Assembly (NCBI GenBank): GCA_029862125.1
Contig: JAOTXY010000028.1
Coordinates: 1 to 38,419 of the forward strand
Reading direction: 5' to 3'
DNA: 38,419 bases
Origin: Gammaproteobacteria bacterium
GTDB lineage: Bacteria; Pseudomonadota; Gammaproteobacteria; GCA-001735895
Every line of letters begins with the position of its first letter. Position 1 is the first letter of the stretch. A model generated the notes under the pieces. That model worked only from the letters and a program-made list of their open reading frames with translations. It was not told the DNA's origin and searched no databases. The position numbers were made by a program, and so were the translations under genes. Below are positions 11,613 through 28,658 of this stretch, piece after piece.

Positions 11613-11664
11613 AAAAGTGGTGGGGCGTGGGCGGCTCGAACGCCCGACCACCTGATTAAAAGTC
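11613..11664 (-). repeat. 52-bp direct repeat within intact tRNA-Lys (putative attachment site, proximal copy)
   Basis: Identical to 8684-8735. Here the repeat is the 3' half of the complete tRNA-Lys gene, from the anticodon stem to CCA plus four T residues. Confidence 0.9.
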
Positions 11665-11693
11665 AGATGCTCTACCAACTGAGCTAACGCCCC
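11618..11693 (-). tRNA. tRNA-Lys (anticodon UUU)
   Basis: A 76-base tRNA with encoded CCA. The acceptor stem is GGGGCGT/ACGCCCC with discriminator A; the D arm reads GCTCAGTTGGTAGAGC; the anticodon stem TCTGA/TCAGG carries the loop CTTTTAA, anticodon TTT; the variable region is TGGTC; the T arm is GGGCG-TTCGAGC-CGCCC. All stems pair. It lies 66 bases after cpoB, a position where tRNA-Lys genes are also found in Escherichia coli and other gammaproteobacteria. A run of six T residues follows the CCA. Confidence 0.97.
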
Positions 11694-24918: not shown

Positions 24919-25298
24919 CGATAAATCTCGTCGGGATTTTTGATAATTTCTTCATCGATTTGCCACTCTCCATCCTTTAAAACACGAAAGAAACAGCGCC
25001 GCCGACCCGTATGGCAGGCAATTCCACCAATCTGCTCTACCTGCATCAACACCACATCGGCATCGCAATCGACACGAATTTCGTGTAATCGCTGGTCGTG
25101 CCCGGACTCTTCGCCCTTAAACCAGAGCTTTTGGCGCGATCTCGACCAGTATACCGCGCGACCCTGCTCACTGCTCAGTTGCAACGCTTCGCGATTCATC
25201 CAGGCCAGCATCAATACTTCGCCAGTTTGATAATCCTGGGCAATTGCAGGGACCAGGCCATCGCTATTCCAGTCGAGCTTCTCAATCCAGTCAGTCAT
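24915..25298 (-). CDS. hisI: Phosphoribosyl-AMP cyclohydrolase HisI
   Basis: A 127-residue zinc enzyme of histidine synthesis step 3. The start at 25298 ([22 protein letters not shown]) is chosen because it matches the family and overlaps hisF by only 8 bases; the open frame continues upstream to 25454 but that part is inside hisF in another frame and has no family similarity. Zinc and magnesium ligands are in VDCDADV and [14 protein letters not shown], with [10 protein letters not shown] and [10 protein letters not shown] also typical. Confidence 0.96.
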
Positions 25299-26067
25299 CC
25301 CGTACCTCGATTCCCCGGGCTCGCATAAACGCCTTGGCTTCGCTGATACGATATTCGCCAAAATGAAAAATACTTGCAGCGAGGACCGCATCGGCTTTTC
25401 CTTGCAGAATACCGTCGGCCAGGTGCTGCAAATTACCGGCGCCCCCCGATGCAATCACAGGAACTCTCACAACTTCTGACACCTGCCGGGTTAACTCGTT
25501 ATCGAAACCTATTTTAGTACCATCACGATCCATACTGGTCAAAAGAATTTCACCGGCACCGTAAGCATCCATTTTTTGCACCCATTCAAGCGTATCGATG
25601 CCGGTCGGTTTACGACCACCGTGGGTAAAAATCTCCCAGCGTCCTGGTTCATCCTGGGTGCTGACACGTTTTGCATCGACCGCGACCACGATACATTGGG
25701 AGCCAAACTTGTCTGCCGCGGCGGCAACAAACTCAGGATTGAACACTGCCGCGGTATTGATGCTGACCTTGTCGGCGCCGGCGTTCAGCATGCGCCGGAT
25801 ATCCGCTAACTCGCGGATGCCACCACCCACCGTCAGCGGGATGAAAACTTCACGCGCCACATCCTCAACCACGTGCACCATGGTATCGCGGTCGTCCGAG
25901 CTCGCGGTGATATCGAGAAAAGTCAGTTCGTCAGCCCCTTCAAGATTGTAGCGGCGTGCATTTTCAACCGGATCGCCGGCATCACGGATTTCGACAAACT
26001 TGACGCCCTTGACCACACGGCCGTTGTCAACATCGAGACAGGGGATAATACGTTTTGCTAGCGACAT
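25291..26067 (-). CDS. hisF: Imidazole glycerol phosphate synthase cyclase subunit HisF
   Basis: A 258-residue TIM barrel that with HisH makes imidazole glycerol phosphate and AICAR. It starts [20 protein letters not shown] with catalytic D12; the second catalytic aspartate lies in IVVAVDAKR. Phosphate-binding loops are GGGIREL and IASGGAGN. In front of it lies palindromic element A, which leaves 279 bases between hisA and hisF; no good ribosome site is seen close to the ATG. Confidence 0.98.
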
Positions 26068-26081
26068 TCGAGCAGGATCAG

Positions 26082-26349
26082 TAGTGCTCCTTCAACCATA
26101 TAATTGCGCGTTCAGTTAGCTTGTCAACGTTCTCGGCAAGACGCGCCTCGCAGACAAGGGCCAACCCCTTGTCAAGAGGCGCAACGCCGTCCGTGGGCGT
26201 TGACAAGCTAACCCGCAGGGCATCCCTGTGGTGTTTCGCAGCTGCGTTGCAGCGCTTGGCAAGGGGGTGGCCCTTGCCCGCACACTGCGTCTTGCTGTGA
26301 AACACCACAGGGACGCTGAAACCGTAATTATATGGTTGAAGGAACACTA
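26082..26349. repeat. Palindromic two-hairpin element A, between hisA and hisF
   Basis: A 268-bp structured element. Terminal inverted repeats: 26089-26105 and 26326-26342 are perfect 17-bp complements, and extend to TAGTG...CACTA at the outer ends with one mismatch. Inside are two long hairpins side by side: GTTAGCTTGTCAACG (26115-26129) with its 15-bp complement at 26198-26212, and CCCTGTGGTGTTTC (26224-26237) with its 14-bp complement at 26299-26312. The whole would fold as a three-way junction in RNA or as a cruciform. Its reverse complement aligns along its length with element B (27727-28067). The right end overlaps the hisA stop codon TAG. Outer TA dinucleotides on both sides suggest a TA target duplication, as in some MITEs (inference). 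No protein is encoded. Confidence 0.88.
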
Positions 26350-27078
26350 GTTCTGATCAATATAGGCCTGCGCCTCGGTAAGGCTGATGGTGCGCTCATA
26401 CAGGGCACGACCAATGATGACACCCTGTATGCCCGAATCCTTGACACCGTTAAGTTCGACAATGCATTCCATATCAGTGACACCTCCCGAGGCGATGACC
26501 GGAACGCCGACCGATTCGGCCAGTTGGCGCGTGGCTTCGACATTAACACCCTGCATCATGCCATCGCGGTTGATATCGGTGTAAACAATGGCGGCGACGC
26601 CCTGGTCCTCGAAGCGCAGCGCCAATTCCTGCGCACTGTGATCCGAGTTTTCGGCCCAGCCATGGACGGCCACCATGCCATCCTTGGCATCGATGCCAAC
26701 GATCACGTTACCTGGAAACTCGGCGCATAGCTGGGTAATGAATTCGGGGCGTTTTACCGCCATGGTGCCGATAATGACAAATTTGACCCCGGCTTCGAGA
26801 TATGACTCAACGGTTGCAATATTGCGAATGCCCCCGCCAATTTGAACCGGCAGGTCGGGAAAGGATTCACAGATTTCCTCAATGACATCCGCGTTAACCG
26901 GCTCACCTTCGAAGGCGCCATCAAGATCGACCAGGTGAAGTCGACTGCAACCCTGATCCACCCACTTGCCCGCCATCGCTACCGGATCCTCGGAAAAAAC
27001 GGTGCTGTCGTCCATGTTTCCCTGGCGTAACCGCACGCAATGACCCTGCTTTAAATCAATCGCCGGAATCAAAATCAT
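26347..27078 (-). CDS. hisA: Phosphoribosylformimino-AICAR ribotide isomerase HisA
   Basis: A 243-residue TIM barrel of histidine synthesis step 4. It starts [17 protein letters not shown] with catalytic D8; the second acid is in [17 protein letters not shown]. Phosphate loops IGGGIRN and IASGGVTD are present. It overlaps hisH by four bases. Its stop codon TAG coincides with the end of element A, so the present C-terminus (EAQAYIDQN) may have been set by that insertion. Confidence 0.98.
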
Positions 27079-27722
27079 GGCCGACCATCCCAGTTGACAA
27101 AGTTACGCAACAACTGCAGACCCGCATCCGCGCTTTTTTCCGGGTGACATTGCAGGGCGAACAGGTTATCCCGTGCGATAGCACTGCTAAAACTGAAGCC
27201 ATAATCGGTAATACCTGCCACCAGGTCCGGCGCTTCGACCTCGAGATAATAACTGTGCACGAAGTAAAATCTGCTGCCATCAGCTATCGAATGCCATAGA
27301 GGATGCGATTGGATTTGTGTCACGCGATTCCAGCCCATGTGTGGAACCTTTAGTTTAACGCCGCTTTGGTCCTTATGGCCATCACCAAAATACTTTACCT
27401 GGCCTTTGAAAATCCCCAGGCATGCAGTGCCCTGGTTTTCTTCGCTATGTTCTATCAGCACCTGCAAACCCATGCAGATTCCGAGAAAGGGGCGTTGCTG
27501 CGCGGCAACCGTGATTGATTCACGCAGACCATATTCATCGATGGCACGCATACAGTCCCCCGCCGCACCCTGCCCCGGGAACACGATGCGGTCTGCTTCC
27601 AGTACCTGCGCCGGGTCAGAGGTTAAAATTACCTGGTCACGATCATCCGCAACGACTTGCAGCGCGTTAACGACCGACCGGAGATTGCCCATGCCGTAAT
27701 CGACCACGGCAATTGTCTGCAT
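27075..27722 (-). CDS. hisH: Imidazole glycerol phosphate synthase glutaminase subunit HisH
   Basis: A 215-residue class I glutamine amidotransferase that feeds ammonia to HisF. The nucleophile is C83 in [11 protein letters not shown]; the His/Glu pair is in ALQCHPEKS near residue 197. The start [17 protein letters not shown] is typical. The end of element B supplies AAAGAG about 9 bases before the ATG, so the repeat may now provide the ribosome site. Confidence 0.98.
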
Positions 27723-27726
27723 GATT

Positions 27727-28067
27727 TAGTGCTCTTTCAACATGATAATTAAGGATTCAGCGTCTCTGTGGTGTTTCGCAGCAAGACGCAATGCGAAGCG
27801 CAAGGGCCAAAGCTGGCCCCATGAGCGCAGCGAATGCTTTGGGTCTTCCCTTGTCGAGCATTGCAACGCCGCTGCGGGACACCACAGGGACGCCCTACGG
27901 GTTAGCTTGTCTGGGCCCACGGACTGCGTTGTGCCTCTTGACAAGGGTGTGGCCAGGGCCGGCCCCATGAGCGCAGCGAATGCATTGGGCCTTGCCTGCG
28001 AGGCACGTCTTGCCGTGAACCCAGACAAGCTAACTGAACTCGCAATTATCATGTTGAAAGAGCACTA
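27727..28067. repeat. Palindromic two-hairpin element B, between hisB and hisH
   Basis: A 341-bp relative of element A in opposite orientation. The terminal inverted repeats are perfect over 24 bases (27727-27750 with 28044-28067) and continue two bases further. Hairpin arms are CTGTGGTGT (27766-27774) with ACACCACAG (27879-27887), and GTTAGCTTGTCTGGG (27901-27915) with its 15-bp complement (28020-28034). It is longer than A mainly because a 23-bp segment, starting GGCCCCATGAGCGCAGCG, occurs once in each hairpin (27815-27837 and 27961-27983). Where its arms differ in sequence from those of A, both sides changed so pairing is kept. The right end overlaps the hisB stop TAG. No protein is encoded. 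Confidence 0.88.
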
Positions 28068-28658
28068 AAGCGATCCCTTGGTCGAAGGAATCACACCCTG
28101 CATGCGTTCGTCTCTGGAAACAGCATAGCGCAACGCGCGACCAAAAGCCTTAAACATGGTCTCTGCGATGTGGTGTGCATTTTGGCCGGCGAGGTTATCG
28201 ATGTGCAGTGTCGCCGGCGCATGATTGACAAAGCCCTGGAAGAACTCGTGAATAAGGTCGACATCGAACTGGCCGATACGGGGTCGAGAGAATTTTACCC
28301 GGTACTCAATCCCGGGACGGCCTGAAAAATCGATTACGACCCTCGACAAAGCTTCATCTAATGGCACGTAGGCATGGCCGTAACGCATGATTCCCTTTTT
28401 ATCCGCGAGCGCCTTGTTAAATGCCTGGCCCAGGGTTATGCCGATATCCTCGACGGTATGGTGGTCATCGATATCCAGATCTCCAGTGGCAGAAATTGTC
28501 AGGTCAAACGAGCCATGACGAGCTATTTGCTCAAGCATATGCTCGAGGAACGGAATTCCGGTATCGAAACTCGAGTTTCCCTGTCCGTCGAGATTGAGCA
28601 CTACACTGATCTGGGTTTCCAGTGTTTTGCGGCTGACTTTTGCACTACGATCTGACAT
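28065..28658 (-). CDS. hisB: Imidazoleglycerol-phosphate dehydratase HisB
   Basis: A 197-residue stand-alone dehydratase (no phosphatase domain, unlike enteric HisB). Metal-binding histidine motifs are [14 protein letters not shown] and [30 protein letters not shown] is also diagnostic. It is the first his gene in the window; hisG, hisD and hisC must be elsewhere. The 128 bases before it (28659-28786) should hold the operon promoter; only a weak CCCGG/CCGGG stem (about 28745-28770) is seen, and no histidine-rich leader peptide. Confidence 0.98.

Follow-up and report, generated by a model that had tools for sequence, protein, structure and literature searches.

Two palindromic elements in a gammaproteobacterial his operon are members of a widespread, two-armed, MITE-like element family

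Two palindromic elements lying between genes of a his operon, here called A and B, are members of a large and widespread element family. We consider it probable (roughly 0.7) that they are separate insertions of a non-autonomous, two-armed MITE-like element and that the matched changes in their paired arms arose largely at the level of DNA. Positions refer to the window, the whole stretch of 38,419 nucleotides that was analysed; hisF, hisA, hisH and hisB carry names presumed from their protein sequences and the operon order. The features are as follows.

26082..26349, plus strand: element A, 268 nt, between hisF and hisA; matches covariance model R1 at 283.7 bits (A is in the training set)
26082..26114, plus strand: left half of the A outer stem, the terminal inverted repeat; its first two bases are the target TA
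26115..26212, plus strand: hairpin arm 1 of A, carrying the sense core CAAGACGC...GCAACGC
26213..26219, plus strand: 7-nt spacer between the arms of A, placed by the family layout, with a difference of a few bases in the single-sequence fold
26220..26316, minus strand: hairpin arm 2 of A, the inverted relative of arm 1
26317..26349, plus strand: right half of the A outer stem; 26347-26349 (TAG on the minus strand) is the hisA stop codon
27727..28067, minus strand: element B, 341 nt, between hisH and hisB; matches R1 at 250.6 bits
28035..28067, minus strand: 5' half of the B outer stem; 28065-28067 (TAG on the minus strand) is the hisB stop codon
27901..28034, minus strand: hairpin arm 1 of B; an insert of about 36 nt lies in its loop near 27948-27983
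27760..27893, minus strand: hairpin arm 2 of B; an insert of about 36 nt lies in its loop near 27810-27845
27727..27759, minus strand: 3' half of the B outer stem, ending GAAAGAGCACTA, 4 bases ahead of the hisH ATG
25291..26067, minus strand: hisF (context, name presumed)
26347..27078, minus strand: hisA (context, name presumed)
27075..27722, minus strand: hisH (context, name presumed)
28065..28658, minus strand: hisB (context, name presumed)

In the orientation used here, element A lies antisense to the his operon and element B in the same sense. The original prediction that the two are homologous when one is inverted holds, with exact coordinates: A on the plus strand aligns end to end with B on the minus strand at 67% identity. 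A mechanical repeat search likewise recovered the terminal repeats and the two hairpins proposed for each element, and the paired differences between them are present as described, with AACG/CGTT in the hairpin arm of A against TGGG/CCCA in B, and CCTTCAACCATATAATT in the terminal repeat of A against CTTTCAACATGATAATT in B, each with its complement. Both elements start TAGTG, finish CACTA and have a 33-bp outer stem; within each element the two arms are related in inverted orientation, which makes the element as a whole a loose palindrome. B is longer than A (341 versus 268 nt) because each of its arms carries the loop insert. The fold of A scores -169.8 against a dinucleotide-shuffle mean of -93.6 (z -14.4; 0 of 200 shuffles) and that of B -190 against -121 (z -13.2; 0 of 100). 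B is crossed on either strand by short 108-aa frames, which were not taken as genes. Loop inserts of the same length (about 36 nt, CCCATGAGCGCAGCGAATGC type) tip one or both arms in B, L004, L006, L061, L163, L164 and L180, and a 25-base piece of the insert recurs elsewhere in the genome (C178:7200-7224).

The original prediction was to be given up if this genome contained no further copies or if many copies had arm changes unmatched by the partner arm; copies were found, and most changes are matched. By DNA search, the genome contains 7 distinct places aligned over at least 220 nt, A and B included, and 17 of 57 relatives have matches when this genome is counted among them. R1, a covariance model built from 26 copies, finds at least 14 distinct full-length places in the genome among the matches listed and has matches in 22 of 31 genus genomes (E <= 1e-3), at least 74 of 274 genomes sampled from the class and at least 46 of 299 sampled from the phylum (both E <= 1e-10). 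This genome is included in each count, and the class and phylum counts are lower bounds because those searches were filtered more strictly and capped the number of candidates. Labels place 24 of the 46 genomes from the phylum sample in the same phylum and outside the class. The exact core pattern matches at least 116 stretches of GTDB contigs. Most titles among 80 such loci read Gammaproteobacteria or name genera that we take to belong there (Stutzerimonas, Microbulbifer, Thioalkalivibrio, Thiodiazotropha, Alcanivorax, Gilvimarinus), and one locus, titled Bifidobacterium breve, gives a weak R1 match of 13.5 bits.

In the family layout a 33-bp outer stem encloses a pair of inverted arms, each some 98 nt long and set apart by a 7-nt spacer, for a total length near 268 nt. 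In alignment A6, 31 of the 33 elements measure 262-271 nt, a narrowness that is partly selected, as these elements come from 31 of the 80 loci picked for a near-full-length match. Subfamilies vary in their ends (TAGTGCTC, TAGTACTC, TAGTGGTC, TAGTGGGCC, TATTAACCCGGC, TAGGG..., TACTAAGAC...) and also differ in the entire stem sequence, to the point that their stems may have none in common. Kept across subfamilies is the arm core, CAAGGCGC....CGCAGG.AATGGC...CCTT..CAAG....GCAACGC, together with its mirror copy; the core is asymmetric (CAAGGCGC...GCAACGC) and is conserved even where the stems are unlike. In genome G029, full copies with TATTAACCCGGC-type ends number at least 12. At 12 of the 15 loci looked at, this genome also has stem-only palindromes of about 37 bp, which either arose by deletion or are themselves a mobile form; those of the form TATTAACCCGGCGAC-AATATAT-GTCGCCGGGTTAATA occur at L186, L189, L190, L192, L199-L204, L207 and L211 (near 1501). 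A 19-bp stem-only relic (TAGTGTTGAAAGAGCACTA, one strand) adjoins a full element in two genomes (L115 1423-1441, L157 784-802). In two genomes (g12C53, g22C209) one and the same gene junction, seen at L164 and L028, is occupied by members of different subfamilies, which suggests repeated use or replacement. Contigs end inside elements at L030, L044, L059, L063, L064 and L112 (with L114); for example, contig C54 of G000 ends within an element that C160 carries whole. Assemblies thus seem to be interrupted by the palindromes, so that the copy numbers are probably too low.

The elements behave as non-autonomous transposons and are apparently mobile, judging from sequence comparison of occupied and empty sites. 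Judged in the same way, the insertions of A and B are lineage-specific. In G030 (HisA 98% identical) and G008 (97%) the hisB|hisH junction measures 6 nt and the hisA|hisF junction 18 nt, both without an element. TAAATC in three other relatives (L087, L090, L106) is the exact B site once the element and a single TA are taken away. Both ends of A and of B carry TA, as is true of 36 of 73 one-per-site elements as delimited; at the A site the duplication is imperfect, the hisF-side flank being 2 nt short of the empty sites in relatives. The family shows the marks of a MITE: it is short and non-coding, has terminal inverted repeats and multiple dispersed copies, and shows TA duplication against empty orthologous sites, exactly for B and 2 nt short for A. 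In G025, what is left of terminal repeats, 36 nt, lies at the hisB|hisH TA, a sign that this TA has been used more than once. The hisA|hisF spacers of other species reach 267 nt (L094, G029) and 125 nt (L096, G018) without a recognised element; this junction may take other insertions too. A reading of the elements as a regulatory RNA particular to the his operon was rejected, as copies lie beside many other genes and the his junctions are empty in the closest relatives; the sequences compared suggest no tie between the elements and his gene regulation.

A TA-targeting DDE transposase would act in trans on the terminal repeats, in this genus probably one of the IS630 family, whose TA target duplication is found here. 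In G029, an open 347-aa IS630-family (DDE_3) frame lies between ends TATTAACCCGGCAAT in an element of 1104 bp (L340), and these ends have 12 bases in common with the ends TATTAACCCGGCGAC of its own elements (subfamily V). G003 has a frame-broken IS630-type element at L354 with ends TAGTACTCCGACAAT and TAGTACTCCATCAAC (TAGTACTCC..TCAA-like), resembling those of subfamilies I and II (compare TAGTACTCCTTCAAT of subfamily II and TAGTGCTCCTTCAAC of A). This broken element starts beside a TAGTGGTC-type element end (TTGTTCGACCACTA; L354 1-88), apparently a nested insertion. The terminal-repeat scan covered 14 IS630-type loci, four of them scanned previously, and gave one family-like end pair (L354); elsewhere it gave chance-like TA-repeat pairs with 2-3 mismatches, and the pair TAGTGGTGATTTTTGA at L343 fails to enclose the transposase match. 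Because the scan also yields such chance pairs at other transposase loci, the IS630 link rests on end likeness. The DDE_3 transposase has no match in the elements' own genome and occurs in only 3 of the 31 genus genomes, as against 22 of 31 with elements, which weighs against present mobility in this lineage. An open transposase with TAGTGCTC ends was not found among the 31 genus genomes. Outside the genus, an end of the TAGGGTCTGTTGACG type (single end), like that of Stutzerimonas, lies 58-75 bases from IS5-family transposase genes of Azotobacter and Paracoccus plasmids. An IS5-family mobiliser within the genus appears less likely, the Azotobacter transposase query matching 0 of 31 genus genomes in a search run without a positive control.

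The target of TAG-type ends is A-Y-TA-R-T, with YTAR in 24 of the 29 TAG-type elements that have TA at both ends. Both his copies occupy the TA of a stop codon, and the element end restores the TAG stop. Of the 73 one-per-site elements, scoring excluded 1 whose flanks were short and 6 that had TA at neither end; the 66 scored comprise 30 at a stop-codon TA, 16 elsewhere intergenic and 20 called in frame, giving 30 of 46 clearly intergenic sites, or 30 of 66 counting in-frame calls, by a longest-ORF caller that wrongly puts A in frame (relatives show its site to be intergenic). As background, the window has 161 non-coding TAs, 19 of them in stop codons; among 193 non-coding YTARs from the window and the his loci of 24 relatives, 44 belong to stop codons. 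Against the latter, binomial p is 1e-9 for 30/46 and 5e-5 for 30/66, with copies that are non-independent. Within tight junctions the stop TA is often the sole TA (30 observed versus 24.5 expected, simulated p 0.004). Given this small excess within junction windows, the striking feature is the choice of tight junctions. In 26 of the 73 elements the end gives an upstream frame of at least 100 codons its stop and a same-strand start with an open frame follows within 25 nt, four of these being an exact TA-ATG by script count. GAAGGAG or GAAAGAG before CACTA resembles what we take to be a ribosome-binding site motif and may act as one. None of 12 copies in G029 sits on a stop TA; their ends read TAT TAA, one extra codon and then a stop, so the stop-codon preference is absent from some subfamilies. 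With an end that restores the stop, an element could persist within operons at little cost.

The covariation is real and large. Alignment A4, made by MAFFT independently of structure fit, holds 26 of the 34 full-length elements known then (8 were omitted, 7 for loop inserts and 1, L056, for small indels). In A4, 61 of 88 pairs show double changes and 96.6% of cells are paired; 0 of 500 column shuffles reach any of five covariation measures, and with slid partners pairing falls to 34-44%. Alignments A5 and A6 include both strands of most elements, so their pair counts are doubled and lean to the model; an arm-only alignment with stems one base out of register was unused for the model. In a 30-copy alignment, position 18/251 takes all four Watson-Crick pairs with zero mismatch, and positions 45-47 change as the blocks AAC, TGG and GTC with their complements. 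Pairing across the family is therefore kept, as originally predicted for a fold of RNA or DNA. A further step, from matched changes to proof that the fold is selected, does not carry, as these look like mobile DNA at TA and the copying of one arm onto the other yields matched changes too.

The make-up of the changes bears on their cause. Among Watson-Crick-consensus pairs of the outer stem, 77 double changes divide into 47 transversions and 30 transitions, and the non-double cells into 12 G-U, 12 A-C and 6 other mismatches. Equal G-U and A-C indicates no strand preference, since A-C on one strand is G-U on the other. Transversion pairs have no route via G-U, and few intermediates were observed. 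Arm 1 has 31 G-U versus 5 A-C cells on the plus strand, a bias that strand-specific selection would give, and arm 2 has no such bias (14 versus 18); all these counts use the RNAalifold structure, which favours G-U, and count sequences rather than events. Comparing flanks yielded eight groups of shared sites, and comparisons at such sites presuppose one ancestral insertion. At two of them, g0C3/g30C2 and g8C62/g19C11, the same flanks enclose an element interior in opposite orientation, as expected if the spacer had been inverted or a second element had inserted; g12C279/g21C4b is a third case, known from a fragment. The apparently shared same-orientation site g8C60/g15C107, near a tRNA gene, shows 10 double, 2 G-U and 5 mismatch changes. 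For g8C62/g19C11 the model-fitted alignment, which leans to the model, gives 2 double, 3 G-U and 6 mismatch changes, and minimum-energy folds give a stronger 4, 3 and 1; the latter were replaced because the fold of g8C60 is one long hairpin spanning both arms. Three of five alignment comparisons (two same-site pairs, one not) show no double change.

Template switching offers a source for such changes. According to the accessible part of one study, switching between arms homogenises inverted repeats and inverts the spacer between them (PMC8604942), and the available portion of another describes multibase compensatory changes in hairpins (PMC8794818). In the elements, one arm would be copied onto the other by template switching at the DNA level, giving most matched changes; the same process may also invert the interior between the outer repeats, and selection would remove copies that lose the layout. 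The outer-stem counts and inverted interiors fit such arm copying at least as well as they fit RNA selection, and arm copying with selection on layout is, we infer, more likely to be the cause than RNA selection alone. Arm copying alone gives no account of an arm core that is kept while stems are swapped.

It is unlikely that the covariation reflects selection on a structured RNA, in which the transcript, alone or within an mRNA, functions as a two-armed junction and, within operons, could shield the mRNA or insulate gene junctions. Such an RNA would fit the 61 of 88 double-changed pairs at 96.6% pairing, the like length and geometry across classes, internal-loop bases that are conserved while stems change, the excess of G-U in arm 1 (31 versus 5) and the placing of both his copies within the operon. 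It sits poorly with arms that are inverted, so that each strand carries one sense and one antisense arm, and with a model that matches both strands (G021:C13, for example, at 305.6 and 229.9 bits). A and B are moreover oppositely oriented to transcription, Rfam gives no match, and the outer stem has mostly transversions among its double changes, with G-U and A-C cells in equal number. That last symmetry, and pairing and length kept over very different sequences, could equally suit hairpin DNA as the transposition substrate, whose arms extrude as a cruciform or single strand and are kept paired by selection on the DNA fold; the arm core is also mirror-placed by each end, as in transposon ends. 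We regard this as quite improbable: IS630-type transposases generally act on double-stranded ends, forms with only the terminal stem (about 37 bp) abound in G029 (12 of 15 loci looked at), and copies without most of their arms stand at shared sites (g30C29, g30C2, g6C2), although arm-less copies may be deletion products as well as a sign that arms are unnecessary. The presence of both elements in one operon could also have come about by coincidence or local duplication, with two palindromes arising there and their changes matched by chance. This can practically be dismissed, being refuted by the many dispersed copies elsewhere, the shuffle and slide controls, and the junctions that are both empty in relatives.

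Several known repeats share traits with the family. REP, BIME and REPIN repeats are inverted hairpins dispersed between genes, and the elements resemble them in this. The portion consulted of PMC3733652 gives REP, BIME and REPIN with RAYT as 20-40 bp units with GTAG or CGTC tags and HUH transposases; the elements have instead TA-flanked 33-bp terminal repeats and DDE IS630-type elements, and so differ in ends and geometry. From the part available of PMC2229807, RUP of pneumococcus, mobilised by IS630-Spn1, is alike in being short and non-coding with terminal inverted repeats and TA ends, and here too an IS630-type transposase with similar ends occurs in the genus. RUP is 107 bp with a 9-bp TIR in that text, unlike the present elements of about 268 nt with a 33-bp outer stem, two core-bearing arms, ends of several unrelated types and, in the TAG-ended subfamilies, a preference for stop codons. 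The same partial source describes ERIC/IRU and Correia/NEMIS as TA-flanked palindromic repeats near genes with base-paired transcripts, about 100-200 bp long, forming a stem-loop by 5'-3' end pairing without arms or linker (PMC2229807); going by these descriptions, two arms and an outer stem over about 268 nt set the present family apart from a single stem-loop. CIR of Caulobacter and Brucella also has two long inverted-repeat arms joined by a linker, and in the passages at hand lacks terminal inverted repeats and end pairing and bears a GANTC motif in the loop (PMC2229807), whereas the ends here pair over 33 bp. The template-switch cases in the accessible portions of PMC8794818 and PMC8604942 concern inverted repeats and RNA hairpins of RNA genes and yeast coding genes; they share one-step multibase compensatory changes, arm homogenisation and spacer inversion, and differ in that the action here would be on a mobile element family with an interior of about 200 nt. 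The original prediction knew no named family with this layout, and none was recognised in the mostly open-access literature searched, as far as the accessible portions extend; no Rfam family reaches the gathering threshold for A or B, and in the whole window only a tRNA does (11621-11693).

Paired changes are commonly taken as strong evidence for a selected RNA fold, and this family is a large natural set in which the covariation signal sits in mobile DNA. Its double changes are rich in transversions and some interiors are inverted, as template switching predicts, so that the two causes could be told apart. It represents a two-armed, MITE-like kind of element that the searches made do not name within the accessible, mostly open-access literature. 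The element enters tight operon junctions by landing on a stop codon and then giving the stop back, and its conserved arm core recurs across classes. We suggest, tentatively and with more doubt than belief, that the family is a phylum-wide mobile module of mirror-placed hairpins with an invariant core and fixed geometry, in which stems are wholly replaced, terminal repeats are unrelated and transposases possibly different, with a single conserved factor binding the folded core as DNA or as RNA. If so, the module rather than the transposon end would be the conserved selfish or useful unit; IS630-type transposases here and IS5-type ends elsewhere could serve different repeats, and at gene junctions TAG-ended forms would also restore the stop codon and might rebuild a ribosome-binding site.
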